The notes under the pieces: model-generated
Told to the model about the DNA's origin: nothing
What the model saw: only the letters and a program-made list of their open reading frames with translations
Database searches by the model: none
Translations under genes and position numbers: made by a program
Origin: Clostridia bacterium
GTDB lineage: Bacteria > Bacillota > Clostridia > Christensenellales > CAG-138
Direction: 5' to 3'
Length of the DNA stretch: 64,000 nucleotides
NCBI GenBank assembly: GCA_017514685.1
Contig: JAFWJN010000025.1
Coordinates: forward strand, 31,251-95,250
Shown here: positions 7,651-25,281 of the stretch, in pieces
Numbering within the stretch: position 1 is the first letter of the stretch
How the letters are laid out: each line of letters begins with the position of its first letter

Positions 7651-10203
7651 TTATATTACCGTTGACTGAAAGATATGCTTTCCGCTGCCAACGGTTTCTG
7701 CTTTTCCGTCCGGAAGAATAATCTCGCAGGTCGTTCCCATAGGTACAACCGCTTCCAGGGTGAAAGTCTTATCTTCGAAGCGCCAAGATGATTTCGCAAG
7801 ACCATAAGGTGTTCTAACAGAAGCTTCAGCCCTGGTCAGCCCGCCGCCCGGGATGGGCTTAATGCGGAAGCTCCGGTAACCGGGTTCTAAAGGTTCAAGT
7901 CCGGCGAGCCTGCGGTACAGGAAATCGCCGACAGCACCGGAGGCGTAATGGTTATAGGAGATCATTGCATCGGTGCCGTCGTTCCCAATCGGACAGACAC
8001 CGTTTTCATCCAGACCGTCCCACCGTTCCCAGATGGTCGTTGCGCCTTGCCTGACTTCATATAGCCAGGAAGGGCATTCCGTATTCAGCAGCATCCGGTA
8101 AGCATCGTCCACATGCCCGTTGTCAGCCAAAGCGAACAGAATGTAGGGAGTGCCGGGGAAGCCGGTTCCGATCCGGTAACCATTATTCTTGACCAGCCGG
8201 GCAAGATTGTCCGCTGCCTTCTGCATTGTATCATTCCGGAACATATGGAAATACAGCGGGAGGACATAAGCGGTCTGGAATTCTTCATTCAGTTTGCCGT
8301 TTCCGTCTGTCAGCAGACTCTCGTAAGCATCCGCGACCTTTGCGGCAAGCTTTTGATACTCTGCAGCTTCGTCCGCTTTACCGAGAATTCCCGCAACCTT
8401 GGCAACGGTAGCGCTCGTGTTGTGCAGACTGGCGGTTGCAGTCCATTTGCTGCGCTTCTGCCATTGGGACATTTGCGGAACATCCGGCGCCACCCAGTCT
8501 CCGAAATGAAAGACGGAAGGTGTATGCCACAGATACCGGTGTTTACCGAATCCGATCAGGTTCGCCCAGAATTTGCAGGCACGGACGTATTTTTTCATCA
8601 TGGAATAGTTTTGTTCCAGGATGGAACGGTCGCCCGTAGCCCGGTAAAGCGCCCACGGAACCAGAACGCAGGCATCGCCCCACCAGTCGATTGCCATTTC
8701 GGGCATCGTGGCAGGGAAGCCGTATCCGTTGACAGGAACGGTGTTCGGCAGTCCGCCGCCTTTCCGCTGTTCGGCGCGTACATCGCAAAGCCATTTATCA
8801 AGAAAACGGCGCATGTCAAAGTTGAAGCATGCAGTCGGACCGAACACTGCAATATCGCCGGTCCAGCCCATCCGTTCATCGCGCTGGGGACAGTCAGTCG
8901 GGATGTCCACAATGTTTGATTTCGCACCCCACTGAATATTACTCTGCAGCTGATTCAGCAGTTCGTTTGAACAGGAGAAGGAGCCGATCTCATCCATATC
9001 GGAATATAAGGCAACCGCCTCAATTTCAAGATCCTTTTCATCCACCCCTTCAACGGAAGCGTAGCGGAACCCCATGTACGTAAGACACGGCATATAGGTC
9101 TGAAGCCCTTCCTTGCAGGTATAGGTGGCAGTTGCTTTTGCGGTACGCAGAAAAATCGTATTCAAAGTACCGTCAGGATTGAGGATCTCTGCATGACGGA
9201 CGGTTACGACCTGCCCGGCTGTCCCGTTCAGTTTCAGAGAGACGACACCGGCGAGGTTCTGTCCGAAATCATAAATCAATTCGTTTCCGATTTTGCTGCA
9301 GGAGACCGGCTTGAACCGTTCCTTTGCCCGGACGGGAGCACCGGTTTCCGCATAAATTCTGGGATTTACGCGAAGCGTTTCTTTTGTGGCGTTTCGCCAT
9401 GCGATGTTTCCGGAATCGATGGTTGCATCATACGTTTCACCATCGTACAGGTCAGCCATACGATAAGGTCCGTCTTCACTGACCATCCAGTTGGTATCCG
9501 TGCCGATGACTTCCGTCGTGCCGTCCTGATAATTCAGATGAATCTCCGCAAGGAGAGCCTGACGGTCTGCAGCGTAGCGATTGATGCGCGTAAAGACGAA
9601 TGATCCGACCGCCCAGCCGCCGGCGACGGTAAAGATCAACTCGTTGTTCCCGGATAACTGATCTGTGATATTGTAAGTCTGATACTGGAGATTGGAAGGG
9701 TATGAAGTGAACCCGGGGGCAAAGAAACGATTGCCAATCTTCTCGCCGTTCAGGGAAACTTCATAGACACCCATCGCTGTCGCATAAAGTTTTGCCGATG
9801 CAACCGGCTTTTTCAGCTGGAACTGCCGCTTAAAAACCATAGGAACCGGAGAAACTTTCTTTTCTGTGAAAGTATAAGCGGAATCGCTGATCCACTCGGC
9901 AGTCCACGGCTCATCCATCCGGCCTGTTTCAAATGACAGGGAAGCAGTTGCTTCTTCGCCTTCGGAATCAAGAACGGACAGAGAGGCATGATAAACGGTA
10001 TATGGTTTTAAAGCCTTGCCAAGGTAGGGAACAGCAATCTGGGCAGACGCGTCGATTGTCTCATCATTCACAGACAGAACAGCCTTCCGGATAGATACAT
10101 TTGACCGGTCGCTTTCGGAAATGAATGAAAAAACAGGATTCTTTTCGTCGGTTACGCAACCGGCTGACAGCCCCTGGCAGCGAAAATCAGCAATACTGAG
10201 CAT
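7651..10203 (-). CDS. Alpha-L-rhamnosidase, GH78
   Basis: 850 residues with the full GH78 layout: N-terminal beta domains (the jelly-roll part includes KLYATAMGVYEVSLNG), a central (alpha/alpha)6 barrel and a C-terminal beta domain. The signature TDCPQRDERMGWTGD, which carries the catalytic acid region, is intact, as is MAIDWWGDA. There is no signal peptide or membrane segment, so it should act in the cytoplasm on rhamnosides that have been imported, releasing L-rhamnose for RhaA. The ribosome site GGAGG lies about eight bases before the start. It is between the GH43 gene and rhaB on the same strand; product and pathway fit one another exactly. Confidence 0.94.
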   Translation of the reverse strand: MLSIADFRCQGLSAGCVTDEKNPVFSFISESDRSNVSIRKAVLSVNDETIDASAQIAVPYLGKALKPYTVYHASLSVLDSEGEEATASLSFETGRMDEPWTAEWISDSAYTFTEKKVSPVPMVFKRQFQLKKPVASAKLYATAMGVYEVSLNGEKIGNRFFAPGFTSYPSNLQYQTYNITDQLSGNNELIFTVAGGWAVGSFVFTRINRYAADRQALLAEIHLNYQDGTTEVIGTDTNWMVSEDGPYRMADLYDGETYDATIDSGNIAWRNATKETLRVNPRIYAETGAPVRAKERFKPVSCSKIGNELIYDFGQNLAGVVSLKLNGTAGQVVTVRHAEILNPDGTLNTIFLRTAKATATYTCKEGLQTYMPCLTYMGFRYASVEGVDEKDLEIEAVALYSDMDEIGSFSCSNELLNQLQSNIQWGAKSNIVDIPTDCPQRDERMGWTGDIAVFGPTACFNFDMRRFLDKWLCDVRAEQRKGGGLPNTVPVNGYGFPATMPEMAIDWWGDACVLVPWALYRATGDRSILEQNYSMMKKYVRACKFWANLIGFGKHRYLWHTPSVFHFGDWVAPDVPQMSQWQKRSKWTATASLHNTSATVAKVAGILGKADEAAEYQKLAAKVADAYESLLTDGNGKLNEEFQTAYVLPLYFHMFRNDTMQKAADNLARLVKNNGYRIGTGFPGTPYILFALADNGHVDDAYRMLLNTECPSWLYEVRQGATTIWERWDGLDENGVCPIGNDGTDAMISYNHYASGAVGDFLYRRLAGLEPLEPGYRSFRIKPIPGGGLTRAEASVRTPYGLAKSSWRFEDKTFTLEAVVPMGTTCEIILPDGKAETVGSGKHIFQSTVI

Positions 10204-10287: not shown

Positions 10288-11754
10288 TTATGCGAGATCG
10301 AAAGCTGTAAAATCGAATGTTCCGCCTTTTCCTTCAACAGAGAAATACAGCGCTTCCTTCTTACCGAGACCTGCCGGCAGTTTGCCTGTGAACACCTTCG
10401 GTTCAAGTGCGGTTTCAACCGGAATCCTGCAGATGATCTCACCATTTTCCTGAGTCCGTACCGTCACAGCGCATCCGTTGCCATAGCCTTGCAAATGAAC
10501 CGCTACCGTTTCGGTTTCAGACAGATCAAAGTACTTAAAGCCGACGGTGCAATCGGTACAGAAATTGGAAACATACTGATCTTCACCTTCTTCACGGTCT
10601 TTGCCGTGCTGCGTCAGGAACGGATTGTCAGCTTTCCGGTATTTGAGCATCGACATAAACCGCGTACCGCTCTTGCCATAAACGTTGCAAGCGATATAGG
10701 TGGGATAGGTTCCCTTGCCGGAAAGAGGCTCGTTGTTCAATCCGCAGGATGTCATTTCCGCCTGATAGAATTTGCCGTCTTCAAAGCGGATATGCTCGGC
10801 ACATGCCTGGCGGGAAGACTGCTTGCGGTTGCTGTGACGATGATAGAAGATATAGTACTTACCGCCGATTTCAATCAGGGAACCGTGCGTATTGCCGGTG
10901 CACATTCTTGCGTGATTCGGATCGGGAACACCCGGCAGACCGATATCTCCGCAGGAGACCAGAATTCCGCCGTACTCGAATCCATGATCGGGATAATCGG
11001 AAACGGCATAGCAGAGGTTGTGACTGTTCAGAGAACTGTAAATGAAATAGTATTTGCCGTTGAATTTACGCATGGAGGATGCTTCGCCGAAAGGCTGCTG
11101 CTCATACGCGGTGCCCTTTGCTTCTTCGCCGGTCAGCACACCGATGTAGCGGAGCTCATCGCCTGAAAGAACAGTCAGCATGTCTTTGGAATCGAGTTCA
11201 AAGAACATCGGACCTTTTTTTGTCGGCTGAGAGCCATCGAGAAGGATCGGATTGCCTCCGAACGCGAAACCGGTGTAGAGATAGAGGCGACCGTCATCAT
11301 CCTTCAGACAACCGGGGTCAAACTGAAAAGGTTCGCCGCGTTTTCCAATCGGAGTACCGTCCTGATACTTGACATAGCCGTAAAATTCGTATTTTCCAGC
11401 GGGTTCATCACATACCGCTACGGAAATCATCTTGGTTCCGCCCATGAAATAATAGAGATAATAGCGCCCGTCATCACCGACTACCATATCCGGAGCGGCC
11501 AGCCCGTTCGTGACGCGAATCCGCGGAGCCGCCGGATCCTGTTCCCGCTTATAGATACAGCCGTGATAGGTCCAGTTTCCAAGATCATCAACCGGTGCGG
11601 ACCAGCAAACATAATCTCCAAGGCAGAAGTTAATGCCGTTAAAAAGGTCATGAGAGCCGTAGACATAGACTCTGCCGTTCACAATGTGCGGTTCAGCATC
11701 CGGTACGTATTCCCAACTCGGAAGATATGGGTTGTAGGCCTGTTTGGTTTTCAT
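10288..11754 (-). CDS. GH43-type glycoside hydrolase with C-terminal beta-sandwich
   Basis: 488 residues. The first 310 or so form a five-bladed beta-propeller of the GH43 type: WEYVPDAEPHIVNGRVYVYG carries the candidate base Asp19, GLAAPDMVVG carries Asp89 and EASSMRKFNGKYYF carries the candidate acid Glu224. The last 130 residues look like a CBM6-type beta-sandwich (YFDLSETETVAVHLQGYG). GH43 enzymes usually remove arabinose or xylose from plant polysaccharides. Here, in a rhamnose operon and without a signal peptide, it may trim side groups from imported pectin-derived oligosaccharides. That role is inferred from context. Start ATG has a GGAG site. Confidence 0.85.
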   Translation of the reverse strand: MKTKQAYNPYLPSWEYVPDAEPHIVNGRVYVYGSHDLFNGINFCLGDYVCWSAPVDDLGNWTYHGCIYKREQDPAAPRIRVTNGLAAPDMVVGDDGRYYLYYFMGGTKMISVAVCDEPAGKYEFYGYVKYQDGTPIGKRGEPFQFDPGCLKDDDGRLYLYTGFAFGGNPILLDGSQPTKKGPMFFELDSKDMLTVLSGDELRYIGVLTGEEAKGTAYEQQPFGEASSMRKFNGKYYFIYSSLNSHNLCYAVSDYPDHGFEYGGILVSCGDIGLPGVPDPNHARMCTGNTHGSLIEIGGKYYIFYHRHSNRKQSSRQACAEHIRFEDGKFYQAEMTSCGLNNEPLSGKGTYPTYIACNVYGKSGTRFMSMLKYRKADNPFLTQHGKDREEGEDQYVSNFCTDCTVGFKYFDLSETETVAVHLQGYGNGCAVTVRTQENGEIICRIPVETALEPKVFTGKLPAGLGKKEALYFSVEGKGGTFDFTAFDLA

Positions 11755-11790: not shown

Positions 11791-13335
11791 TTATAAAAGA
11801 TTGTTTCTCAGAAAATAAGAGGGAGAGCAGCTCCAGGCATGACAGTAGCTGTTTACAATCGTTCCGCCATAGGGGGAAGCGTCAGGGTCTTCGGGATTCC
11901 AGATTTCCCAGAACGTATCCGCGTTTTGCTGAATCATTCCGCCCCAGTAAAACTTCAGATGCTGCAGAGCGGCCTCTTTCTCACCGGCTGTCAGAAGCGC
12001 TTCCAGATAATAGTGATGAATGTAGGGTGAAACAAGCGGGACTTCTGCAGGAAGCACGAGAAGGGCATGCTTTGCTTCTTCTTGAGTCAAAACGCCTCCG
12101 AGCGTCAGCCAGATGCGGGCAGCGGACGAATCCTGAATACCGGAAGAAATTGCTCCGTTGGTGCTGTCCCAGAAACGGGCACGCGCTCCTGCACGACCTA
12201 ATTCCTGAGCTTTTGCAAAAGCTTTTTCCCGATCAGCATCCTGTGCCTTTCTGGCCAGATAACGTCCGTATGAAAGTGTGTACAGGAAAAGACCCTGCAT
12301 GCATGCGGATTTTTCATGGTTTGGCGCCCAGTCGATAAACGCAGCTTCTATATCCTCTGCGGAAACGATCCCGTCGGTATCGCAGGCGGCGACAGCACGG
12401 TCAAGCTGAAAAACAGCAGTCTCGTATAGATCGTGAAGAGCTTCCCGATCATCGCTGTGGGCGATATATTCCGCCAGAGCAACCGGATACAGCAGGGCAT
12501 AATCTGAAAACCAGGTATCGTCAGCAACTGCTTCTCCGTCTGTAAAAAGGCAGGCGGAGACCCGGTCGTCGGGGAAACGCGTTCCTGCGAAAAGATACAA
12601 ACAGCGCCGGACGGAGTTCAGGTCGTTAAAGGTCGCATAATTAGCAAGTGCTTCCAGACGAAGGTCGCCCAGCCATAAACGGCGGTCGCGTTTGGGACCG
12701 TCTTCAAACACTTCCTGCATGCATTCGGAAAGCGTTTTGACAGATACGGCATCGATTCTGCTGAGCATAGAATCCTCGAATGAAACATCCGGAACAGCTG
12801 ACAGATCTACTGCGGAAACGGCATCCAGGGACAGGTCGTTTATCCGGACACTGAACTTGCGTGAGGTGTCAAGAACGGTCAGTTTCAGAAAACGGAATGC
12901 ATATCTGCGGGGAAGACGAAGCGAAGCGGGCAGTTTGTCAACGTGCAGATACTCCTGCTGAATCCAGCTTTTGGAAATCCATCCGTGATAGTTTTCTTCG
13001 CTTTCATACAGCTCGCTTTCGCGCTCAGCAAACTGCAGGCGGATATAAGCCGGAGCATCCGGATGACTGCCGGTAAAAGAAAGGGCAAGCGTCACGTATC
13101 CGACCCAGTGCGTTCCGAAATCATAACAGATATGCGAGCCGGGGCCGAGTGAAAGTGAAAAGGAAGCATCTAAATCAACCGGTGTATTGGCGGTACCGGA
13201 AGACTCGGAAAGAAAAAAAGCGGCCTTCGGAGATACCTCGGTATGTTTCAGAACCGGAAGAAACGACTGCGCTTTTGCAAGCAGCAGAGGATCGTTTTTC
13301 GGTTCGAAATTTTCAATAATGGTATAACGTTCCAT
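11791..13335 (-). CDS. GH78-like alpha-L-rhamnosidase, short form
   Basis: 514 residues from ATG 13335, which has GGAG four bases upstream; an in-frame longer form adds 25 residues that do not look like protein of this family and would cover the promoter. The middle has EDGPKRDRRLWLGDLRLEA, the counterpart of the TDCPQRDER-GWTGD signature of the larger GH78 enzyme in this operon, followed by a six-hairpin barrel up to YCHAWSCSPSYFL. The N-terminus carries one beta domain instead of several, so it is a compact GH78-related enzyme. It is the first gene of the operon and has no signal peptide. Rhamnosidase activity is likely; the preferred linkage is unknown. Confidence 0.8.
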   Translation of the reverse strand: MERYTIIENFEPKNDPLLLAKAQSFLPVLKHTEVSPKAAFFLSESSGTANTPVDLDASFSLSLGPGSHICYDFGTHWVGYVTLALSFTGSHPDAPAYIRLQFAERESELYESEENYHGWISKSWIQQEYLHVDKLPASLRLPRRYAFRFLKLTVLDTSRKFSVRINDLSLDAVSAVDLSAVPDVSFEDSMLSRIDAVSVKTLSECMQEVFEDGPKRDRRLWLGDLRLEALANYATFNDLNSVRRCLYLFAGTRFPDDRVSACLFTDGEAVADDTWFSDYALLYPVALAEYIAHSDDREALHDLYETAVFQLDRAVAACDTDGIVSAEDIEAAFIDWAPNHEKSACMQGLFLYTLSYGRYLARKAQDADREKAFAKAQELGRAGARARFWDSTNGAISSGIQDSSAARIWLTLGGVLTQEEAKHALLVLPAEVPLVSPYIHHYYLEALLTAGEKEAALQHLKFYWGGMIQQNADTFWEIWNPEDPDASPYGGTIVNSYCHAWSCSPSYFLRNNLL

Positions 13336-13484: not shown

Positions 13485-14807
13485 TCAGTTCATTTTTAGG
13501 GGAATCAGAATATCAAGGCCGAACCAACCGTCTTCACCGGTAATGGATATCGTTCCGCCGTATTTTTCAACGGTAGAACGGATGGATTTCAGCCCATAAC
13601 CATGATAACGCTTATCGGGTTTGGTGGTTTCAGGCAGGATTCCGTCAATATACGGACCGGCCTCATACCTGTTCTTGATACGGATGCTGAGAAAACCCTT
13701 CTGACGGGAGACCGAGAGAAGAATAAGGCGCTGCTCCGGGTCCTTGACCTGCACGACGGCTTCTATCGCATTATCGATCGCGTTGCCGAACAAAGCCGAC
13801 AGATCCATGACATCCATAAAATCGAGGGAATGACCGTCGGCAACAACCGTCAGAGTAATTCCCGATGCCTGGCAGGTCAGACTTTTTCCAGTCAGGATCG
13901 TATCGAGAACAGCATTGCCTGTTTTATTCTGCGCTTCAAAGGCACGGATTTCCTGTTCCATACGATCCAGATACTCGAGCTTTTGTCCCGAACCGACTTC
14001 AGAGCGGAGGATCGCAATCTGATGTTTCAGATCATGATATTTCTGGTTGATCAGATCGACTGTTTCCTGACGGACCCGGTAGTTTTCATATTGCTGGTCG
14101 AGAATGTGCTGCAAGGCATCGCGTTCGGTTCTGGTATACAGATCGCATTGATGCAGATGGAACGCAAACAGAACCGATGCTCCGCCGAGGTACACGATGG
14201 TACGGGTCATGAAGACCTGCGATTGGGTTCTTGCTGTGAACGGAGTATCAAGAAGAGTGTAACTCAGGGAACTGAGAATATAAATAGCGAGTGCGACAAA
14301 AACGGTCATCAGTGCATACCAGAGCGGAACCCGCATGTCGGCAATTTCATTCCGGTGCAGTCTTTCAAGAACCCATGACAGCACGATTATGATGCCTCCG
14401 AGCAGGAGCATTGCGAAGAATTCCCACTCACGTGTCTGCAAAAAAGGAAAATGGTTCATATAGAACCAGTAAATCTGCCAGGCAAAGGATACGGCAAATG
14501 CACCGATAATAAATGCGCGGGCACAATAATATACTTTGTTCCAGAAAGAAGTATCTGTCAGGATGATAAACGGGAAAAGCGTCCATACGGCAAACAGCGT
14601 CATACCAAGATTGAAAGGCATGCCGCGCAGAGGAGCTATTACACTGTACAAGGCAATCTGGACAGGCAATAGTAATATGGAAATCAGAATGACCCACGCC
14701 TGTTTGATTCTTTTGGGCAGCAGAGCGATAAACAGAATATCGGCGAGCCAGTGGTAAAGTGCTGTCCAGATAAAAGGGATGTCGGTGTCGAAATGAAGCT
14801 GAGTCAT
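13485..14807 (-). CDS. Sensor histidine kinase, AgrC/LytS-like (GHKL)
   Basis: Membrane sensor of a LytTR-type two-component system, 440 residues. About six hydrophobic segments fill the first 210 residues (for example WVILISILLLPVQIALY and YALMTVFVALAIYIL). A coiled linker and the phospho-acceptor motif YHDLKHQIAILR follow, with His262 as the likely site. The ATP-binding domain shows an N box (LFGNAIDNAIEAV) and a G box (GYGLKSIRSTVEKYGG). The layout matches AgrC-type kinases of the HPK10 class, which often sense peptides, but here the ligand is unknown. The start overlaps the stop of the regulator gene upstream by four bases, so they are co-made. Confidence 0.92.
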   Translation of the reverse strand: MTQLHFDTDIPFIWTALYHWLADILFIALLPKRIKQAWVILISILLLPVQIALYSVIAPLRGMPFNLGMTLFAVWTLFPFIILTDTSFWNKVYYCARAFIIGAFAVSFAWQIYWFYMNHFPFLQTREWEFFAMLLLGGIIIVLSWVLERLHRNEIADMRVPLWYALMTVFVALAIYILSSLSYTLLDTPFTARTQSQVFMTRTIVYLGGASVLFAFHLHQCDLYTRTERDALQHILDQQYENYRVRQETVDLINQKYHDLKHQIAILRSEVGSGQKLEYLDRMEQEIRAFEAQNKTGNAVLDTILTGKSLTCQASGITLTVVADGHSLDFMDVMDLSALFGNAIDNAIEAVVQVKDPEQRLILLSVSRQKGFLSIRIKNRYEAGPYIDGILPETTKPDKRYHGYGLKSIRSTVEKYGGTISITGEDGWFGLDILIPLKMN

Positions 14808-15514
14808 GAGCCGACCTCGTTGATATATTGATTCAGGGCGTCCAGAAACAGCTTTTTCTTTGCGCGGCTGACGGGAACGATCTGATTTCCGATGACCGCA
14901 TCGCCGTCCTTGATTCCATCCACATGAGCAAGATTCACAAGATCACCTTTATTGCATCTGAAAAAGGGAAGGTCCTTGAGCGAATCCTCGACTTCTCTCA
15001 TTGCGCCGATCGTGGTGATGTCGCCGTCCCGCATGTGGTAGATCAAGGTATGCCCGTGTACCTCGACATAAAGAAGCTCAGAGGCATCGATCTTTCTGCT
15101 GCCTTGAGACCCGTTGACAAAGAGATAGGTTTTATTGCTGCGCTTGAGACGCTTCAGAATACGGTTGAGGCATTGGGAAAACGCATAATAAGACAGGGGC
15201 TTCAGAATATAATCAAGGGCACCGACCGAATATCCTTCTATGGCAAACTGTGGCATGTTCGTGATAAAGACGATGACGGTTTCCTCGTCGATCTCGCGGA
15301 TTTTTTTTGCGGCAGTCATACCATCCATGTTAGGCATTTCGATATCCATCAGGATAATATCATACTGACCGTGGTACGACTCTAACAGATCAGAGCCGTC
15401 TGAATACATGCTTACGGACAGATCACAACCGGTTTCCTTCTTATATTGCGCAAGGAATTGTTTCAGCTGCTTTTGAAACAGGGCTGTATCCTCTGCAATG
15501 GCGATCCGAATCAT
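14804..15514 (-). CDS. LytTR-family response regulator
   Basis: 236 residues: receiver domain with acidic pocket (AEDTALF) and phospho-acceptor Asp57 in IILMDIEMPNMDGM, then a LytTR DNA-binding domain (from about residue 135; SELLYVEVHGHTLIYHM, LPFFRCNKGDLVNLAHV). LytTR proteins bind pairs of short direct repeats spaced two helical turns apart. Exactly such a pair lies in the divergent intergenic region at 15590-15621, so autoregulation or control of the GH3 operon is expected. The gene has an AGGAGG site and a probable promoter at 15541-15569. It is transcribed before its kinase, an arrangement seen in some AgrC/AgrA-like pairs though not in agr itself. Confidence 0.93.
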   Translation of the reverse strand: MIRIAIAEDTALFQKQLKQFLAQYKKETGCDLSVSMYSDGSDLLESYHGQYDIILMDIEMPNMDGMTAAKKIREIDEETVIVFITNMPQFAIEGYSVGALDYILKPLSYYAFSQCLNRILKRLKRSNKTYLFVNGSQGSRKIDASELLYVEVHGHTLIYHMRDGDITTIGAMREVEDSLKDLPFFRCNKGDLVNLAHVDGIKDGDAVIGNQIVPVSRAKKKLFLDALNQYINEVGS

Positions 15515-15540: not shown

Positions 15541-15569
15541 AGAATAACATAAAGAACATGCAAAGACAA
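15541..15569 (-). promoter_or_regulatory. Probable promoter of the LytTR two-component operon
   Basis: Minus strand TTGTCT (15569-15564), 17-bp spacer, TATTCT (15546-15541). It lies 27 bp before the regulator start and about 20 bp from the nearer LytTR repeat. Confidence 0.5.
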
Positions 15570-15589: not shown

Positions 15590-15621
15590 ACGGTTCATGC
15601 GTCGAAAACGACGGTTCATGC
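15590..15621 (+). promoter_or_regulatory. Tandem LytTR-type binding site
   Basis: The 11-base sequence ACGGTTCATGC occurs twice, at 15590-15600 and 15611-15621, identical and exactly 21 bp apart. This spacing and the GTT core are those of AgrA/LytTR operators. The second copy ends eight bases before the -35 of the GH3 promoter, a normal activator position. Confidence 0.8.
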
Positions 15622-15629
15622 AGATCGTA

Positions 15630-15658
15630 TTGCAGGGAATTTACCGCGTTGTTACAAT
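15630..15658 (+). promoter_or_regulatory. Promoter of the GH3 operon
   Basis: TTGCAG (15630-15635), 17-bp spacer, TACAAT (15653-15658). The predicted 5' leader of about 45 bases holds a perfect 8-bp hairpin (CGATATGG 15667-15674 / CCATATCG 15681-15688) before the ribosome site GAGGAGGAG. Confidence 0.8.
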
Positions 15659-15710: not shown

Positions 15711-18700
15711 ATGAAGACACAGAAAATTGCCCCGGTCATGCGCGGTTTGTGCGCACTGATGGCAGTGCTCTTTGTTCTTGCAACCATCGGAACAACCATC
15801 GCAGAAGGATACCGCTCCGCACTTGACAGCGTTCTGGGAACGCAGAGTTATGTGACGAATACGGATGCAGACGCGGCCAGGTTCAAGACCGATTATGCAA
15901 CGATCGAAGAGATGGGCGCAGCAGCCAAAAACATTTCGATTCGTGAGGGAGAAGAAGGAACAGTTGTCATGAAGAATGATAACGCGGTTCTGCCGCTTCC
16001 GGCGAATGCGCAGGTTGTACTGTTCGGCCTTGCCGCTTATGCGCCGTATCCCTACGCCAACGGCGACCTGAAAGGCGGAAACGAGGATCAGGTTGATCTC
16101 GTTGATGCACTGACTGCAGAAGGTATTCAGATCAATGAAACCGTTAAGAAGTTCTACACGGAGAACATTCTCAACAAACATATTGAGATGGTTCCGAACA
16201 TGTGGACAGGCGAAGAAGTTCCGACGATCTCGTATGACCACATTTATGTAGCTTCCCCGGGTGATTGGGGAGAATATCAGATCGTTGAGATTCCGCCGGT
16301 TGAATTTGAAACAATGGGCGCTCCCGCGAACTGGAAGGATTCCATTGACAAAGCGAACAGCACGGCAATCTGCGTGTTTGCCCGCGGCGCAGGCGAAGGC
16401 AACACCTACAAGCCTGGTTCTGCAATTGACTATTACGGAAATGCAACAGGAAAAGACCCGCTGGCTCTGTCTGCGGACGAACTGGCCGTTATCGATGTTG
16501 CAAAAGAGACCTGCTCCAAGGTTCTCGTTCTGATCAACTCCGGCAACAACATGGTTCTGAAAGAGATCGCAGCTGGCGGTTCCCATGAAGTCGACGGTAT
16601 TGCCTATATCGGCGTGATCAATGACTATCAGCTCACCGGCGCAGCGCGCGTACTGACCGGAAAAGTCAACGCGACCGGTGCTCTTCCGGACACCTATGTG
16701 GCGGATAACGCAGCGATTCCCGCAGTCGTCAACTTCGGCGGCGATATGTACGCGGACTATGAAATCGTTGCTACAGAAGGTACAGATTCCCGCTTCCCCG
16801 GTGAATCGGTTGCCAACATTCCGGCCGGTTCTTTCGGCGGAAGCTCGACTTACAACGGCGGCATGTACATCGTTGAAGCAGAAGGCATCTATGTAGGCTA
16901 TAAGTACTTTGAGACCCGTTACTATGATGCGGTCATGAATCCGTCCTCCAATGCAGCTTCTGCCAAGGGCGCAACCCAGGGCTCTGCATGGGATTACGGC
17001 AAGGAAGTTCTCTACACTTTCGGTCATGGACTGTCCTATCTGGATTACACACAGACTCTGAAGAGCGTTGATGTGGACAAGACCCCTGAAGGCAATGTTA
17101 CTGCGGTTGTTGAGATCAAGAACAACGGCAACACTGCAGGCAAATTCCTCGCACAGCTTTATGTCCAGAAACCGTATACGGAATATGACAAGACGAACCT
17201 GGTCGAGAAATCTGCAGTTGATTTCCTGAATTCCGCTAAGGTGGATGTCCCCGCAGGCGGAACGGCTGAAGTCACCATTACGGTTCCGACCAAGTATCTG
17301 GCTTCTTATGACTATAAGAACGCAAAGACCTACATCCTTGATGAAGGCGACTATCTGTTCACCGCAGCGGCAGGATCCCATGCGGCAGTCAACAACTTCA
17401 TCGTTGTGCAGGGCGGAACACCCGACGGAACGACGAAGGAAGGCGTTGTTGTAAAATGGAACCTCGGTTCGTTTGACGATACGACCTTTGCTGTTGAGAA
17501 CGGTGTTGTTGTAACCAACGTTGCGGACGATGCCGATCTGAACTACTGGACCGGAAAAGACACCGTAACTTATCTCTCCCGTGCGGATTGGGACAAGACC
17601 TATCCGATCAACTATAACGAGGTAGAGGTCAAGATCGGCGACAGCCCGAAGAAGGACGAGTGGATCAAGGAACTGCAGGGCAGAACCTATGAGATCTCCA
17701 ATACCGGCGCAGCTGCCGAGGGAACCGATCAGGGTGCACGCTTCAACGCGGAACAGGTTGGTTACGAGCAGTTCACGAACATCAACGATCCGTACTGGGA
17801 CAAACTGGTTTCCGAGATCACGATCGATCAGGCAGTCGGTGCTGTCATTCACGGCGGAAGCCGTTCCGATGTGCTGGAAAATGTTGAGAACCCGGTCGTC
17901 ATTCAGAACGAAGGCGTTTCCGGCTTCACCACCGGTTACACGGATGAAGCTTCCGGCAAGACCTATAAGTTCAACATCCATTCCCAGACTTTGATCGGAT
18001 CCTCCTTCAACCCTGAACTCGCATATGAATGGGGCAGAGTCGAGGGCAACTCCGGTCTCTGGATCAACCGTTTCCATCTCTGGGGCACCGGCCTTACACA
18101 GCGCCGTACTCCTTACAACGGACGTAACTACGAGTACGTTTCCGAAGATCCTATGCTGACCAACCGTATCGGCAATGCGATTCTGCAGGGCTGTGCTGAC
18201 AAGGGTATCCTGAACGGACCGAAGCACATGGGCTTCAACGATCAGGAACACAACCGCGGCGGCATCTCCGCCTACATGACGGAGCAGAAGTTCCGTGAGA
18301 CAGACCTGAGAGGCTTCCAGGGTGCTTTGGAAGATGTAACAGGCTGCCGTGCTGTCATGATCGCGTTCAACCGTATCGGTGCAACGAATGCTGCGCATCA
18401 TGTCGGAATGCTGCAGAAGATCCTGCGCGGTGAGTGGGGTTACACCGATCTCGTCTCGACTGACATGATGAATAACAAGTACTACTTCAACGCGGAATCC
18501 ATGGTAATGTCTTCCATTACTCAGGTCGCAGACTTCGCCGGTGATGATGCTCATATCAACCAGGGCGAGGGCGGTGTCGACAAGACTTGGGCTCACATCT
18601 CCGTGGATGCTGTGAAGAACGATAAGAACCTCGTTGAGCAGGCAAGACAGAACCTGAAGTATCAGCTGTTCGCCTATGCCAACAGTGCAATTCTGAATGT

Positions 18701-18836
18701 TTCGACCGTTAAGGTCGCAACATGGTGGGACAATGCATTGACCGCTGCCCGTACCTGCACGGCGATTCTCGCCTGCGTGGCAGGTCTCGCGTGGATTGCT
18801 TTGACCCTGCTTCCCGAAAAGAAAGGAGAAAAGTAA
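15711..18836 (+). CDS. Membrane-anchored GH3 protein with permuted domain order
   Basis: 1041 residues. A membrane segment (about 10-31) is followed by the GH3 C-terminal alpha/beta sandwich domain (opening EEGTVVMKNDNAVLPLP near residue 85), a fibronectin-III-like domain (to about 570) and then the GH3 N-terminal TIM barrel (about 690-970). The barrel keeps the Lys838-His839 motif (GPKHMGFN) and the nucleophile motif with Asp918 (LVSTDMM). A second membrane segment lies near 1010-1030. Normal GH3 enzymes have the barrel first; swapped forms are known in rumen Firmicutes beta-glucosidases. Both ends appear membrane-bound, with the catalytic part outside. GAGGAGG precedes the ATG. Codon choice is strongly biased (AAC, TTC, TAC), suggesting high expression. 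Substrate unknown; a beta-glucoside or cell-wall sugar is likely. Confidence 0.88.
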   Translation: MKTQKIAPVMRGLCALMAVLFVLATIGTTIAEGYRSALDSVLGTQSYVTNTDADAARFKTDYATIEEMGAAAKNISIREGEEGTVVMKNDNAVLPLPANAQVVLFGLAAYAPYPYANGDLKGGNEDQVDLVDALTAEGIQINETVKKFYTENILNKHIEMVPNMWTGEEVPTISYDHIYVASPGDWGEYQIVEIPPVEFETMGAPANWKDSIDKANSTAICVFARGAGEGNTYKPGSAIDYYGNATGKDPLALSADELAVIDVAKETCSKVLVLINSGNNMVLKEIAAGGSHEVDGIAYIGVINDYQLTGAARVLTGKVNATGALPDTYVADNAAIPAVVNFGGDMYADYEIVATEGTDSRFPGESVANIPAGSFGGSSTYNGGMYIVEAEGIYVGYKYFETRYYDAVMNPSSNAASAKGATQGSAWDYGKEVLYTFGHGLSYLDYTQTLKSVDVDKTPEGNVTAVVEIKNNGNTAGKFLAQLYVQKPYTEYDKTNLVEKSAVDFLNSAKVDVPAGGTAEVTITVPTKYLASYDYKNAKTYILDEGDYLFTAAAGSHAAVNNFIVVQGGTPDGTTKEGVVVKWNLGSFDDTTFAVENGVVVTNVADDADLNYWTGKDTVTYLSRADWDKTYPINYNEVEVKIGDSPKKDEWIKELQGRTYEISNTGAAAEGTDQGARFNAEQVGYEQFTNINDPYWDKLVSEITIDQAVGAVIHGGSRSDVLENVENPVVIQNEGVSGFTTGYTDEASGKTYKFNIHSQTLIGSSFNPELAYEWGRVEGNSGLWINRFHLWGTGLTQRRTPYNGRNYEYVSEDPMLTNRIGNAILQGCADKGILNGPKHMGFNDQEHNRGGISAYMTEQKFRETDLRGFQGALEDVTGCRAVMIAFNRIGATNAAHHVGMLQKILRGEWGYTDLVSTDMMNNKYYFNAESMVMSSITQVADFAGDDAHINQGEGGVDKTWAHISVDAVKNDKNLVEQARQNLKYQLFAYANSAILNVSTVKVATWWDNALTAARTCTAILACVAGLAWIALTLLPEKKGEK

Positions 18837-18837
18837 C

Positions 18838-19314
18838 ATGAAAAACAAGAAATTCTCCATCGGCGCATGGATCACCTGCTGCGCTGCAGTTCTCGCTCTG
18901 ATTGCACTGATCGTTTATGCGATTAACGTCGGTGCAGCCGGATATTTCCAGGGCGCATCCGTCCGCAACCTCGTGCTGTTCTCGATTCTTGCAATCGTGC
19001 TGCTTGCAGCAGCGATCGTGATTGGACAGCTGAAGTGTGACGGAGTTGTCGGCAAAGTGCTGAAACTCGTCGCAGGATGCTGCCAGATTGTTGCACCCGT
19101 GCTGCTTGCAGCCTGCCTGATCAACCTGATCTCCGCACGTGTCGAAGGCCTCGGCTTCATCTACTTCTCCAACGCGGACGTTGCGCTGGAAGTTCAGACG
19201 CCGGAGAACCTTTCCTCTGCGACAGGTTCGATCGCAGCAATGGTTTGCTACGGCGTTTCGATGCTGGCTGCGATCATTGCGGCATTTACCAACGTATGGA
19301 AAAAGGAAGCATAA
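18838..19314 (+). CDS. Small four-helix membrane protein, partner of the GH3 protein
   Basis: 158 residues with about four hydrophobic segments: ITCCAAVLALIALIVYAI, LVLFSILAIVLLAAAIVI, VLLAACLINLI and MVCYGVSMLAAIIAAF. Between the third and fourth is a hydrophilic stretch (EGLGFIYFSNADVALEVQTP) probably outside the cell. The ATG is two bases after the GH3 stop, with GGAG inside the end of that gene, so the two are co-translated. I do not recognise a named family. It shares the biased codon use of the GH3 gene. The likely role, inferred from coupling alone, is as a membrane partner or chaperone of the GH3 protein. Confidence 0.8.
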   Translation: MKNKKFSIGAWITCCAAVLALIALIVYAINVGAAGYFQGASVRNLVLFSILAIVLLAAAIVIGQLKCDGVVGKVLKLVAGCCQIVAPVLLAACLINLISARVEGLGFIYFSNADVALEVQTPENLSSATGSIAAMVCYGVSMLAAIIAAFTNVWKKEA

Positions 19315-19425: not shown

Positions 19426-19450
19426 AATATGGAAAAGGAGGGATGCCGGA

Positions 19451-21247
19451 ATGAACAAAAAAACGATTGTTTTCGTTTCGCTGATTCTGGCGTCTTTTTT
19501 TGTGCTTTTCCTGATTCCTTCCGCAAAAGCAGATAATGCCGTTCCGCACCGAATGATCCGGTATGATGGAAACGGAGGGACATCGGAAGCATTCGGCAAC
19601 AGTTATGATGCGCAGGTGACAGGCATTCATGACAGGGAAAATACACTCCAGGGAGTAAGTTATTTCTCACGTGAAGGGTATCTTCTTGCCGGCTGGAATA
19701 CTGCCCCTGACGGAAGCGGAATTCATATCGGACTCGGGAGCCGGATCACGTACTCCGAGGGATTGATCTTGTATGCGGAATGGGCGGAAGCGACGGATGA
19801 GTCGCTCTTTGCCTCAGAGAACGGAACGATTCTTTCCTATATCGGGTCTGGGAATACGGTTGTTATTCCGGACACGATTGAAGGACAGGCCGTAAAAAAA
19901 ATTGCAGAGGGAGCGTTCAGCAATCTCGCACTGAAGTCTCTGATCCTGCCGCCTTCCCTGGAAACGATTGAAAACGGGGCCTTCTCAAAATGCATGATCG
20001 AGAACCTGACCCTTTATGACCGTATAAAAACTCTTTCAGATGATTCGTTCGCAGAATGTACGGTTCATACTGTTCATGTGAATGCAGCGCGTCCGCCGGT
20101 TTACAGCGGTTCCTATTTTGATACTTTTTCCGATAAATATGATTATCTGCTGACGATCACCGACAAACAAAAGCTAGTCCTGTTTTCCGGCTCATCCGGA
20201 CGCTACGGATATGACAGCCCTGCCATAGAGTCAGCATTTCCGCAGTATCGCGTCGTGAATATGGGTGTATATGCCTACACCAACGCGCTCCCGCAGTATG
20301 AACTGATCCGCCCGCTGATGCGGGAAGGCGATATTCTGCTGGTTGCACCGGAGTTTGACGCGGTGAGAGAGCAGTTCTGTACTGAAAACTGCCTTGATTC
20401 AGGATTCTGGGCGATGATGGAATCCAATTATGACGCTGCTGCAACCCTTGATCTTGCCCGTTATACAAATATATTCAACAGTTTTGCTGATTATCAGAAA
20501 GTACGAAGCGGCATGGCCTACCGGGGATACGGGGAGAGTCCCTGGTCCTTTGATGACGATGGAAACCGTTACACGTTCGCGACATACAACACGCAGGGCG
20601 ATTTTATTCTTCCGAGACCGAACAGTGAACGGGATGAACTGCACCGGCATAATATAGCGGATTATACGACGGAGACCGTTACACCGGACGCGGCTGATTC
20701 TCTGGACCGGACCCTCAGGATCTTTACGAAATCCGGTATTAAGGTCTATTTTACATATGCGCCGCGCAACCGGTCATCTCTTACGGAACGGAGCACAAAG
20801 GGGGAGAGGGAAGCCGTACACAGTATGCTGTGCAGCAGACTCTCTGTTCCTGTAATTTCCGAGATAGAGGATTCTTTGTATTCCGGAATATATTTCTGGA
20901 ATATAGACAATCACCTCTCAACAGAAGGGGTATCGATCCGTACGGCGCAGGTCATTCGTGATCTGAAAGCTGCTGTTTCCGGAGGGAAGACCGAAAGGCC
21001 TTCTGCTATGAAAGACTTCCGGATTCCTTATCCTGCGGCTTTGGGATTGTATGCGCTTTCGCTCCTGCTGATCCTGCTCGGCAGATGGAGAAGGCTTGAA
21101 TGGGCAGAGTTTGCTTCCGGAATTATCTGGGCGACGGCGACAATCACAGCTCTGGTCTATGGAGCGCCGGGATCCTTTTTGCTGATCTGCACGCTGCTGC
21201 TTTTGCTGGCTTCAATTCCCTATAGAAAGCGGGGTGAGCAGGCATGA
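19451..21247 (+). CDS. Exported SGNH-like protein with InlB-type and BspA-type repeats
   Basis: 598 residues from ATG 19451, chosen for its AAGGAGG site and perfect signal peptide; the open frame begins 18 codons earlier inside the promoter. Order of parts: signal peptide (1-26), an InlB/Flg_new-type beta repeat (RYDGNGG ... GYLLAGWNTAPDG, about 35-105), a BspA-like leucine-rich repeat block (VVIPDTIEGQAVKKIAEGAF, about 115-220), an SGNH-type domain with LFSGSSGRYGYDS (Ser246-Ser249) and IDNHLSTEG (Asp486, His488), and two or three C-terminal membrane helices. The DxH motif resembles AlgX/AlgJ acetyltransfer proteins. With the MBOAT gene next to it (four-base overlap) it probably moves acyl groups to a surface polymer; this is inferred. 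Confidence 0.82.
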   Translation: MNKKTIVFVSLILASFFVLFLIPSAKADNAVPHRMIRYDGNGGTSEAFGNSYDAQVTGIHDRENTLQGVSYFSREGYLLAGWNTAPDGSGIHIGLGSRITYSEGLILYAEWAEATDESLFASENGTILSYIGSGNTVVIPDTIEGQAVKKIAEGAFSNLALKSLILPPSLETIENGAFSKCMIENLTLYDRIKTLSDDSFAECTVHTVHVNAARPPVYSGSYFDTFSDKYDYLLTITDKQKLVLFSGSSGRYGYDSPAIESAFPQYRVVNMGVYAYTNALPQYELIRPLMREGDILLVAPEFDAVREQFCTENCLDSGFWAMMESNYDAAATLDLARYTNIFNSFADYQKVRSGMAYRGYGESPWSFDDDGNRYTFATYNTQGDFILPRPNSERDELHRHNIADYTTETVTPDAADSLDRTLRIFTKSGIKVYFTYAPRNRSSLTERSTKGEREAVHSMLCSRLSVPVISEIEDSLYSGIYFWNIDNHLSTEGVSIRTAQVIRDLKAAVSGGKTERPSAMKDFRIPYPAALGLYALSLLLILLGRWRRLEWAEFASGIIWATATITALVYGAPGSFLLICTLLLLLASIPYRKRGEQA

Positions 21248-22650
21248 GCTTTGACTCTCTGTTTTATCCTTTTTTTCTGCTGATTGTCGTTGTTCTGCAT
21301 CATGTTCTGCCGCATCGCTACCGCAGATTCCTTCTGCTGATCGCCAGCGCTGTTTTCTACGCCTCATGGAACATCCCGCTGACCCTTCTTCTGTACGGGG
21401 TGATTGCGGTGACCTATTGTGCAGGGCTGCTGATCGGAAAATGGAGTTCTTATCAGAAACGCAGAAAAGCAGTTGTGTCTGCAGCTCTCGTAGTCTGTGT
21501 CTGCCTGCTGCTGTATTTCAAGTATTTCCGGTTTCTGATGGATGGAATTTCCTCCCTGGTCCGTCTGCTGGGAGGCAGAGGAGAATGGCAGCTTTGGAAT
21601 GTACTTTTGCCGGTCGGCGTCTCGTTCTATACCTTCCAGGCAATGTCGTATGTGATCGATGTGTATCGAGGACGGGCTCCGGAGCGGGATTTCGGATATT
21701 ATGCCCTGTATATTTCATTTTTTCCGCAGCTGGTTGCAGGCCCGATCGAGAGGGCGGATGCGCTTTTGCCGCAATTGAAAGCGGAGCGTACCGTAACGGA
21801 GAATGACAGAAAAGAGGCGTACAGATTTCTGCTTTCAGGATATTTTCGCAAAATTGTTCTGGCAGATTTCTGCGGGATATTTGTCGACCGTGTCTATAGC
21901 GCTTCCATGCCGGACGGCAGCGCGGTTATGATAGGCACCTTGCTGTTTGCCGTTCAGATCTATTGTGACTTTGCGGGTTATTCTGAAATTGCCCGCGGAA
22001 GCGCGAGGCTTCTGGGAATTCACCTGATGCAGAATTTTGCCCGGCCGTATCTTGCACCGGATATCCGGACTTTCTGGCGACGTTGGCATATCAGCCTGTC
22101 AGGCTGGCTGACTGATTATGTCTATATTCCGCTCGGCGGCTCCCGGAAAGGTTTGCTGCGGCAGATTACTGCAACGGTTGCCGTGTTCCTGATCTCCGGT
22201 CTCTGGCACGGAGCAAACTGGACTTTTGTTCTGTGGGGACTGCTGCACGGACTCCTTGTTGTTCTGTGTGTTTTGATAAGCAGAGCGGATAGAAAAGTCA
22301 TTAAGAGCAGGTTTCTGACAATCTGTTCGACTGCACTCACTTTCTTCTGTGTAACGCTTCTCTGGATCTTTTTCCGGGCTTCGAGTGTTTCACAGGCATG
22401 GAACCTGTTTTCCGTTTTGTTCTCAAGATGGAATGTTTTGGAGGGGATCGGGATTCTTCAGATGACATGGCAGGATTCCGTGCGTCTGCTGCTTTCCGTT
22501 GCCGGAATGATTTATCTTCCGTATTTGACCGCAAAGAATGAAAACCCGCGTTATATGAGTCAGGTATTTTTGCTTCTGGCGATCCTTGTAGCATGGTGGA
22601 TCCGGCTTGATTCGGGAACCGCAAGTGCTTTTATCTATTTTCAGTTCTGA
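21244..22650 (+). CDS. MBOAT-family membrane O-acyltransferase (AlgI/DltB-like)
   Basis: 468 residues, about eleven hydrophobic segments. MBOAT proteins take acyl groups, usually acetyl, across or at the membrane for O-acylation of alginate, teichoic acids or peptidoglycan. Family motifs are clear: LPVGVSFYTFQAMSYVIDVY, SFFPQLVAGPIERADALLPQ, YCDFAGYSEIARG, FWRRWHISLSGWLTDYVYIPLGGS and the active-site ISGLWHGANWTF with His322. The ATG overlaps the upstream SGNH gene by four bases, and the second SGNH gene follows after 23 bases, so it sits between two likely partner proteins. Acceptor polymer unknown; AlgI-type context is closer than DltB because no dltA/C is present. Confidence 0.94.
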   Translation: MSFDSLFYPFFLLIVVVLHHVLPHRYRRFLLLIASAVFYASWNIPLTLLLYGVIAVTYCAGLLIGKWSSYQKRRKAVVSAALVVCVCLLLYFKYFRFLMDGISSLVRLLGGRGEWQLWNVLLPVGVSFYTFQAMSYVIDVYRGRAPERDFGYYALYISFFPQLVAGPIERADALLPQLKAERTVTENDRKEAYRFLLSGYFRKIVLADFCGIFVDRVYSASMPDGSAVMIGTLLFAVQIYCDFAGYSEIARGSARLLGIHLMQNFARPYLAPDIRTFWRRWHISLSGWLTDYVYIPLGGSRKGLLRQITATVAVFLISGLWHGANWTFVLWGLLHGLLVVLCVLISRADRKVIKSRFLTICSTALTFFCVTLLWIFFRASSVSQAWNLFSVLFSRWNVLEGIGILQMTWQDSVRLLLSVAGMIYLPYLTAKNENPRYMSQVFLLLAILVAWWIRLDSGTASAFIYFQF

Positions 22651-22673
22651 TTACTTGGAAAGGAGGGATATCA

Positions 22674-24092
22674 ATGCGGAAAATAACCCGGTATATTCTG
22701 ACTGCCGTGATCGTGCTTCTGGTTCCGGTAATGCTCCTTTGCTTTGCATTTCTGCTCCCTCCTCAATATGATGAGACTTATCTGGCCGGGCTGCAGGATA
22801 AAACAGAGCGGTTGAAAACAGTAAAGGGACAAAAAATTATCCTGATTGGAGGAAGCGGCGCCGCGTTTGATGTGCGTTCGGATCTTCTGGAACAGGAATT
22901 ACCCGGCTATACGGTTGTCAACTATGGTTTATATGCAGGCTTGGGGACAACCGTGATGCTCGAACTGGCGGAGCCTTATGTCCGTCAGGGCGATTTGATC
23001 GTGTTTTTACCGGAACAGAGCGGACAGACTCTTTCCACTTATTTCGATGCGAAATCACTTTGGCAGGCGGAAGACGGGGCACTGCCTCCGCTTTTGTCTC
23101 TCGGAGCCAAGGAACAAAAAGCAATGATCGGTGCTTTCGGAAGATTTGCGGCGGATAAAATGAATCTGTACCTGTCCGGCGCAAAACCGAAAGGCGAGAA
23201 GGTTTATGCGCGATCCTCTTTCAATGTCTATGGAGATATCGCATGCCGGGGAAGGGAACATAATATAATGCCGGAGGGATACGATCCGAACATGCTGATC
23301 GCCTTTGATCCGGATCTGCCGACAGATGACTTTTTCTCCATTGTAAACACATTCTCTGAAAAGTGCAGAAAAAAAGGCGCTGAACTATATTACTGCTTTT
23401 GTCCGATGAACGCTTCTGCTGTTTCAGCGGAAGAACTGGAGCATATCGGAGACTATACTTCAAAGCTGAAGGATCGTCTGAACTGCTCCGTTCTGGGAAC
23501 AGCAGAAGAAGCGATCATGGAGCAAGGGTGGTTCTTCGATACCAATTATCATCTGAACGAAGCCGGGCAGATTGTATATACCGCATGGCTTTCCGGGCAG
23601 CTGAAGACAGTGACGGGAAACAGAACCTCTGTTTCCATTGAGCTGCCGTCAATGCCTGAAAGCGATTCTGCGCATATCTGGGATGGCGATAACAGTGATG
23701 AGGAATACTTCCTTTATGAACCATACTCGGATGGTTTTCGCATTACGGGATTGACAGAGCAGGGAAAAGGGCGGAATTCGCTGATCCTGCCCGCAATGTA
23801 TAACGGACTTCCCGTACGAAGCTTCACTTCATCCGTTTTCTCTTATAATCAGGTGATTCGGACGATCTTTGTTAGCCGGAATATTGTGTGGATTCCGGAT
23901 GATTCCTTCTTGGGATGCATCGCGCTGGAAAAGATCATTCTGGAAAATCCGGAACCGGAAACCTGCTCAGTCGGTCAGAATCTGCTGAACGGCACGGATG
24001 CGGTGATCACGGTCCCTGCTGAAGCGTATTCTTCCTACGCGACAAACTATTTCTGGGCGATGCACGTGCCGCGCATGGAAACGGAAAAATGA
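22674..24092 (+). CDS. Membrane-anchored SGNH-like protein with leucine-rich repeat tail
   Basis: 472 residues. N-terminal anchor helix (ILTAVIVLLVPVMLLCFAFLL), then an SGNH-type domain with IILIGGSGAAFDVRS (Ser61), an internal NYGLYAGLG block and the late motif FDTNYHLNEAG (Asp289, His293), then a short BspA-like leucine-rich region (about 350-450; GLPVRSFTSSVF, IPDDSFLGCIALEKI). It is related in plan to the first SGNH protein, but with the repeats at the other end. AlgJ/AlgX-like proteins work with MBOAT partners to transfer acetyl groups outside the membrane; the same is inferred here. Ribosome site AAAGGAGGG precedes the ATG. It is the last gene of the set. Confidence 0.82.
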   Translation: MRKITRYILTAVIVLLVPVMLLCFAFLLPPQYDETYLAGLQDKTERLKTVKGQKIILIGGSGAAFDVRSDLLEQELPGYTVVNYGLYAGLGTTVMLELAEPYVRQGDLIVFLPEQSGQTLSTYFDAKSLWQAEDGALPPLLSLGAKEQKAMIGAFGRFAADKMNLYLSGAKPKGEKVYARSSFNVYGDIACRGREHNIMPEGYDPNMLIAFDPDLPTDDFFSIVNTFSEKCRKKGAELYYCFCPMNASAVSAEELEHIGDYTSKLKDRLNCSVLGTAEEAIMEQGWFFDTNYHLNEAGQIVYTAWLSGQLKTVTGNRTSVSIELPSMPESDSAHIWDGDNSDEEYFLYEPYSDGFRITGLTEQGKGRNSLILPAMYNGLPVRSFTSSVFSYNQVIRTIFVSRNIVWIPDDSFLGCIALEKIILENPEPETCSVGQNLLNGTDAVITVPAEAYSSYATNYFWAMHVPRMETEK

Positions 24093-25231: not shown

Positions 25232-25281
25232 AATTCCTCCAATATAGTTGAAATAATTTCATTAAATGTTGGTTCTGTATG

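Follow-up and report, generated by a model that had tools for sequence, protein, structure and literature searches.

Tandem repeats between a LytTR two-component system and a membrane-tethered GH3 gene: a probable glycoside-sensing switch in a Clostridia genome

The stretch of DNA analysed here (the window, 64,000 nucleotides of a Clostridia bacterium genome) probably carries a dedicated, self-contained two-component switch that senses a glycoside and activates its own surface glycosidase. A LytTR response regulator (RR) and a histidine kinase (HK) are encoded on one side of a divergent gap, a membrane-tethered GH3 protein and a small membrane protein on the other, and a tandem repeat lies just upstream of the GH3 promoter (Table 1). 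The case can be read from the DNA in the presence of all the parts, in the geometry of the predicted operator and its conservation within the genus, in the genome-wide pairing of LytTR genes with tethered GH3 genes, and in the intact catalytic pair of the enzyme; regulator binding, activation and the class of signal we infer. The first-pass annotation had called the locus a self-contained unit of sensor, regulator, site and enzyme, and all of these are present by sequence, the site being a predicted one. If anything it understated the unit, because the genome has nine LytTR systems, each beside a tethered GH3. The recurrence of this kit in the genome and in many other bacteria points to a putative family of dedicated glycan-sensing switches.

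Table 1. Coordinates, strand and basis of the features of the locus
Feature	Position in window	Strand	Basis
GH78 alpha-L-rhamnosidase, possible co-substrate enzyme	7651..10203	-	Pfam
GH43 protein, possible co-substrate enzyme	10288..11754	-	Pfam
GH78-like protein beside the kinase, possible co-substrate enzyme	11791..13335	-	Pfam
HK, about 5 hydrophobic segments and HATPase_c_5	13485..14807	-	Pfam, alignment
RR, receiver and LytTR domain	14804..15514	-	Pfam
Weak candidate promoter of the RR-HK operon, TTGTCT-17-TATTCT	15541..15569	-	Consensus match only
Putative operator repeat 1, ACGGTTCATGC	15590..15600	+	Direct reading and pattern search
Putative operator repeat 2, ACGGTTCATGC, 21 bp from repeat 1	15611..15621	+	Direct reading and pattern search
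-35 element of the GH3 promoter, TTGCAG	15630..15635	+	Direct reading
-10 element of the GH3 promoter, TACAAT	15653..15658	+	Direct reading
Membrane-tethered permuted GH3, C domain - Fn3 - N domain	15711..18836	+	Pfam, alignment
Small membrane protein, 158 aa, 4-5 hydrophobic segments, no Pfam match	18838..19314	+	Directly 3' of the GH3 stop

The two-component system and the GH3 enzyme

The receiver domain (PF00072, E 1.6e-19, 70.6 bits) and the LytTR domain (PF04397, E 5.7e-14, 52.6 bits) of the RR both score above the Pfam cut-offs, as they do in all eight other RRs of the same genome. The HK is of the GHKL/AgrC type, with several transmembrane segments, an HATPase_c_5 domain and a conserved phosphoacceptor-type histidine; His258 (within HDLKH) and Asn346 are invariant in 28 of 28 aligned sequences. 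AgrC is itself a GHKL-type kinase, as is the HK of the window. The term 'AgrC-like' used in the first-pass annotation fits the class of the kinase domain and goes no further: the AgrC equivalog model scores 21.1 bits against a cut-off of 500, and AgrB has no match in the genome (82.6% complete), in a search with a weak control (0 of 14 known genomes above the cut-off). Pfam recognised no extracellular sensor domain in the HK, and no obvious peptide precursor was seen by eye among the small open reading frames of the divergent gap.

The GH3 protein shows the domains of its family in permuted order, the N and C domains scoring 48.3 and 56.5 bits, above the cut-off, and the intervening Fn3-like domain 24.3 bits, just under the cut-off of 25. 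Its hydrophobic segments at both ends (residues 13-31 and 1016-1034), which would serve as anchors, together with the 158-aa membrane protein, bear out the earlier description of a membrane-tethered GH3 with a small membrane partner. A catalytic Asp/Glu pair is in place: E229 and D918 are present in every aligned sequence (22 of 22 and 30 of 30) and correspond in the alignment to Glu458 and Asp242 of TnBgl3B (PDB 2x40; residues counted by hand), which are the acid/base and the nucleophile of that enzyme according to papers including the available part of PMC11233000. R805, K838 and H839 are likewise invariant. The -1-subsite Trp that follows the nucleophile in GlyA1 and BrGH3A was found in 0 of 30 and 0 of 22 aligned sequences (51 distinct, the window protein being shared by the two sets). 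This position is Met919 in the window GH3, is highly varied across the 51 sequences, and is M, S, C, I, L, Y or F in nine GH3s of the same genome. The Asp of the DGPxG motif, taken as the -1 Asp, is replaced by Glu or Asn in many of the aligned GH3s. These observations suggest that the GH3s are active enzymes with varied sugar preference; the best matches of the window GH3 by sequence among solved structures are beta-glucosidases.

A tandem repeat at the GH3 promoter

The repeat had been described as an exact duplicate of ACGGTTCATGC, 21 bp apart and ending eight bases before a TTGCAG-17-TACAAT promoter, and direct reading and a pattern search confirmed this, with 8 bp between repeat 2 and the -35 element and a promoter spacer of 17 nt. 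The interpretation of the repeats as a LytTR operator gains support from their geometry and from the phylogenetic footprint (see below). Taken as 9-bp repeats, the pair has a 12-bp spacer; it consists of tandem direct repeats with a period of about 21 bp, a few bases 5' of a -35 element, and this is the geometry of a canonical LytTR operator, as which we predict it. The GH3 promoter on its own is unremarkable, with 8 of 12 consensus matches over the -35 and -10 elements, below the threshold of the promoter scan and not listed there. With respect to the RR promoter in the window, the operator does not lie at the standard distance.

Among 20,000 dinucleotide shuffles of the 196-bp gap, an exact 11-mer repeat appeared in 77 at any spacing and in 4 at a spacing of 20-22 bp. 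A chance origin of the repeat was rejected on these shuffles together with the phylogenetic footprint and the geometry grid described below.

Conservation of the repeats in related genomes

Orthologs of the GH3, with 85-87% identity, are found in four genus-mates (G062, G065, G067 and G068), two of them cut by contig ends; beyond these, one further genome among 103 genomes of the family matched the GH3 at 1e-50, with 38% identity. The first-pass annotation had proposed a search of related genomes for the 21-bp repeat beside GH3 genes and had staked its reading on the presence of the repeats upstream of orthologs. With up to three mismatches allowed, the paired pattern matched in 4 of the 103 genomes. 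All four matches sit in the gap that precedes the orthologous GH3, and the own genome has no match besides the one in the window. The fifth ortholog, that of G065, has a more diverged pair, and the repeats are present in the orthologous gap of all five genomes with an ortholog (the own genome and the four genus-mates), with diverging flanks. A reversed control pattern gave 6 matches, in other genomes. Because 4 matches stand against 6 in the control, the raw count is not above chance, and we rejected it as evidence by itself.

The footprint is clearest in the mean pairwise identities over the 10 pairs of the five orthologs, aligned on repeat 1: 0.91 for repeat 1, 0.78 for repeat 2 and 0.62 for the spacer between them, against 0.35-0.41 for the 40 bases upstream, the 25 bases downstream and the 8-bp gap. 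The promoter elements give 0.55 (-35) and 0.67 (-10), values that are lowered because the gap in G067 is 9 bp; TTGC of the -35 element is common to all five orthologs, and the -10 element reads TACAAT in four and TACACT in one. When G068 is left out (G062 and G068 are close), the repeats stand at 0.89 and 0.76 versus 0.31-0.34. Operator conservation is weaker outside the genus: a Murimonas relative with 66% identity shows no clear repeat, only a weak, poor pair by eye.

Operator geometry at other GH3 loci

The same geometry was sought in 263 intergenic gaps from 58 loci with a GH3 and a response-regulator match, 15 of them from the own genus; the regulator is LytTR-type in 56 and receiver-only in 2. 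Repeated 10-mers with at most one mismatch occur at the 21-bp spacing in 21 gaps of 18 loci, and at each other spacing from 11 to 44 in 0-7 gaps. A grid of 18 x 19 (342) cells, in which repeat spacing (d) was set against the distance to the -35 element (g) and a -35/-10 pair was required, peaks at d=21 and g=7-9 bp, with 19, 18 and 17 matches versus a mean of 2.1 per cell, in a count where neighbouring cells are not independent, strands are counted apart and orthologs are included. Sixteen of the 58 loci carry a match at 7-9 bp; of these, L120 and L122 look doubtful by sequence, and at L122 and L124 the only regulator within reach is of the receiver type. Because only these 16 of the 58 match, most operators, if present, escape the grid test.

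Within the own genome, the window and the cluster on contig C20 show the conserved geometry, as does C52 by eye. The repeats differ from module to module: ACGGTTCATGC in the window, CAAGRTTACGY and AAAGGTTAYGY in the C20 cluster, ACSSTTCCTGC (by eye) on C52, and on C61 a 21-bp repeat of ATCTGCGACA without standard promoter spacing. No operator of the 21-bp form was found for the modules C5, C2 and C20:80k. The DNA-contact motif of the window RR is FFRCNKG. In a table of contact residues and operators that picks many doubtful operators, ACGGTTC operators are accompanied by FFRCNKG or FYRCNKG, and AAGRTTACG-type operators by FARCNNY/F; with so many of its operators in doubt, we draw no claim of covariation from it.

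Two arrangements were seen in passing. In locus L041 (3153-3986, on C20 of G000), one repeat pair lies between divergent promoter-like pairs, TTGACA-TATCAT toward the regulator and TTGAAT-TATAAA the other way, at the standard distance on both strands, which suggests joint control and autoregulation. In Streptococcus suis (L105, 9751-13629), each of two successive GH3-related units lies downstream in a region opened by tandem repeats, two GATTATG-type pairs in all preceding the units, and the RR and HK genes are divergent.

Pairing of LytTR genes with tethered GH3 genes

Nine LytTR genes were found in the own genome (2.37 Mb in 61 contigs, 82.6% complete), all of the receiver-LytTR type; each has a kinase and a tethered GH3 relative in its vicinity. 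The genome has 19 GH3s. All 10 tethered ones lie at most 4.1 kb from a LytTR gene, and the other 9 lie more than 42 kb from one or on contigs without any (10/10 vs 0/9 within 8 kb, Fisher 1.1e-5). Among the GH3s listed for six genomes of the genus, many of whose contigs are short, 25 of 37 tethered and 0 of 18 other GH3s are within 8 kb of a LytTR gene (8e-7), which leaves 12 of the 37 tethered ones with no LytTR gene within that distance. Both tests assume independent paralogs, an assumption that does not hold in full (the nine LytTR genes occupy about seven separate places), and the label 'tethered' comes from profile and gene-map results with hand-entered coordinates. One 507-aa frame, G065:C321, was called tethered on a weak PF00933 score alone, and its exclusion gives 25/36; a GH3 fragment beside a LytTR gene (G067:C23) was left out because PF00933 had no match. 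One of the listings behind these counts scored no more than 8 candidates in each genome and so covers part of the GH3s in some of them. Counted from the side of the regulator, the LytTR genes near a tethered GH3 number 9/9, 3/3, 6/10, 2/6, 2/5 and 1/1 in the six genomes. The 11 exceptions comprise five frames of 154-196 aa, seemingly too short for a receiver and a LytTR domain, one 68-aa fragment, and five of 247-270 aa, including the one on G067 C23 beside the GH3 fragment.

In the set of nine paralogs from the own genome, the distances among RRs track those among HKs (r 0.68, p 0.0001). The RR-GH3 and HK-GH3 values are r 0.20, p 0.19 and r 0.08, p 0.31, in a test that paired each RR with the nearest GH3 and may have mispaired some in the C20 cluster. 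Because RR and GH3 distances show no clear agreement, one-to-one co-duplication of regulator and enzyme among the nine is not supported, and we set that idea aside. Over all 57 modules the RR-GH3 correlation is r 0.32, p 0.002, a value confounded by species relatedness.

Wider spread and neighbouring genes

A search with the 22-row GH3 alignment gave at least 589 confirmed candidates, and among the best 80 of these a LytTR response regulator is present in the fetched DNA at 42 loci. When only loci of at least 22 kb among the same 80 are considered, LytTR is present in 22 of 31 and absent in 9. Where both genes occur within this set, their median nearest distance is 1.5 kb, and the records with the pair include Murimonas, Butyrivibrio, Bifidobacterium asteroides, Alloscardovia, Olsenella, Thermophilibacter, Fusibacter and Streptococcus suis. 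The highest identity among the matches listed, 66%, belongs to a Murimonas record that is flagged as unverified contamination.

Clustering of 639 neighbours from 99 loci, with domains checked on examples, placed a small multi-TM protein in 37 of the 99 loci, in a cluster that is partly heterogeneous because lipoproteins are also linked in. Other clusters are GH2-like (20 loci), GPH symporter-like (16) and GH78 (5). In the window, three possible co-substrate enzymes follow the kinase gene (Table 1), of which the protein at 7651..10203 matched NCBIfam rhamnosidase models below their cut-offs. Because the neighbours are GH78 and GH43 in the window and GH2, GH78 and GPH symporters at other loci, a plant-type glycoside is favoured as signal and substrate over a wall product, and flavonoid rhamnosides are a lead as substrate. 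L082 and L065 have the order RR-HK-GH78-GPH-GH3, all in one direction. In L082 (3439-13546, Bifidobacterium asteroides) a LytTR RR, an HK, a GH78-like protein, a GPH symporter, a GH3 and a small membrane protein stand in a row, which could serve rhamnoglucoside use.

Several further neighbours were observed. The small membrane protein of the window is followed on the same strand (19430-24092) by genes for a BspA-repeat protein (SGNH-like by eye), an MBOAT protein and a protein without a Pfam match; homologs of these genes also lie beside GH3 in L047 and L050, MBOAT-like genes lie near GH3 in L065, L087 and L104, and a link between surface O-acylation and the GH3 module is possible. In L041, L046, L051 and L055, genes near the GH3s encode putative lipoproteins, either about 190-210 aa or 461-493 aa long, and three examples had no Pfam match. 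Further along the window (24548-29219, minus strand) are genes for a DUF4956 membrane protein and then for 238-aa and 1074-aa proteins, which by eye we take to resemble VTC-like and CotH/lamin-tail proteins.

Proposed mechanism and alternatives

In the mechanism that we favour, the ligand of the membrane HK would be a small molecule; a plant-type glycoside, or a sugar or aglycone that such a glycoside releases, is the likeliest candidate. On detecting it, the HK would phosphorylate the LytTR regulator. Two regulator protomers would then bind the tandem 21-bp repeats just upstream of the weak -35 element and recruit RNA polymerase, turning on the GH3 and its small membrane partner. The GH3 would cleave an exo-linked glycone outside the cell, and the neighbouring enzymes would carry out uptake and further trimming. 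A bolder version, which we hold tentatively and think rather doubtful, is that the genome runs nine parallel insulated glycan-sensing circuits on a common template, with private tandem operators and differing GH3 -1 subsites, in which the product that each GH3 sets free at the membrane is sensed by its own kinase. If true, this would be a Gram-positive counterpart of the one-regulator-per-glycan strategy of Bacteroidetes, with the enzyme closing the loop.

The kinase could also be read as a peptide receptor. Its HATPase_c_5 domain, its weak similarity to AgrC and its multi-TM layout, which we take to resemble that of peptide receptors, would suit a quorum-sensing system in which an AgrC-like kinase detects a secreted peptide and the GH3 is one output of a density response. 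This seems unlikely given how far the AgrC model falls below its cut-off, the lack of an AgrB match (weakly controlled, in an incomplete genome) and of an obvious precursor by eye in the divergent gap, and the carbohydrate genes among the neighbours. LytTR systems are often tied to envelope genes, which would fit a GH3 whose substrates are polymers of the cell's own wall or surface, with a kinase reading a wall product or stress. The ties of LytTR systems to bacteriocin genes (PMC6193735, in its available part) and the MBOAT and SGNH-like (by eye) genes downstream of the small membrane protein would fit this as well, but the best matches among solved structures are beta-glucosidases and the GH78, GH43, GH2 and GPH neighbours point to plant glycans, and we consider envelope sensing unlikely.

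An equally improbable arrangement makes the tethered GH3 and its small partner a part of the receptor, presenting the ligand to the kinase or gating it, with enzyme activity secondary. The genome-wide pairing of GH3 with LytTR-kinase genes, the membrane segments in both proteins and the lack of a sensor domain recognised by Pfam in the kinase all speak for such a role. Against it stand the catalytic residues E229 and D918, which do not vary in any of 30 aligned sequences, a pattern to be expected of an enzyme, and the lack of covariation between GH3 and kinase distances in the nine paralogs.

If the glycoside-sensing switch is real, a testable rule would follow: across many Firmicutes and in some Actinobacteria, a LytTR system with a tethered GH3 would be a dedicated glycoside sensor whose operators and target promoters could be read from sequence. 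Nutrient sensing by a LytTR system is known for pyruvate, with BtsS, and would be extended to glycosides. The ligand and the substrate of a whole enzyme clade might then be predicted together.

Comparison with known systems

The first-pass annotation had not seen such an arrangement described. For the adjacency of LytTR and anchored GH3 genes this does not hold: in the rumen bacterium Butyrivibrio proteoclasticus B316, each of the three LytTR regulators has in its vicinity a secreted GH3 that carries a C-terminal transmembrane helix (Kelly et al. 2010, PMC2914790), an arrangement that by its description resembles the one in the window. That account, in the part of the paper available, is one sentence with no operator, other taxa or paralog expansion, and it is the only report of a GH3-LytTR link in the open-licence literature searched, of which coverage is partial. 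For the operator, the private-operator paralogs and the breadth the statement stands within that partially covered literature, where no account was found; print may differ. One locus tabulated in PMC5320581 (available part) has a LytTR regulator but lacks a GH3.

The enzyme resembles GlyA1 and BrGH3A, permuted GH3 beta-glucosidases that share the order C - Fn3 - N, the acid/base Glu and the nucleophile Asp (PMC11233000, in its available part); it differs from them in the hydrophobic segments at both ends and in lacking the Trp after the nucleophile. With AgrA/AgrC of Staphylococcus aureus (PMC4227749, as far as available), the window shares a LytTR response regulator and two direct repeats upstream of promoters; the DNA-contact motif is FFRCHNS in AgrA and FFRCNKG in the window RR. 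Further differences from the Agr system are the lack of an AgrB match and an output that is a glycosidase.

The LytTR regulatory systems (LRS) of S. mutans, HdrRM and BrsRM, combine a LytTR regulator with an inhibitory membrane protein, whereas the window has a receiver-type RR and a histidine kinase; with receiver domain and kinase present in place of a membrane inhibitor, it is not an LRS (PMC6193735, available part). The operator layout, however, is shared: LytTR operators in S. mutans have 9-bp repeats with mostly 12-bp spacers, 4-11 bp before the -35 element, and that of HdrR lies 8 bp upstream of it (PMC6193735).
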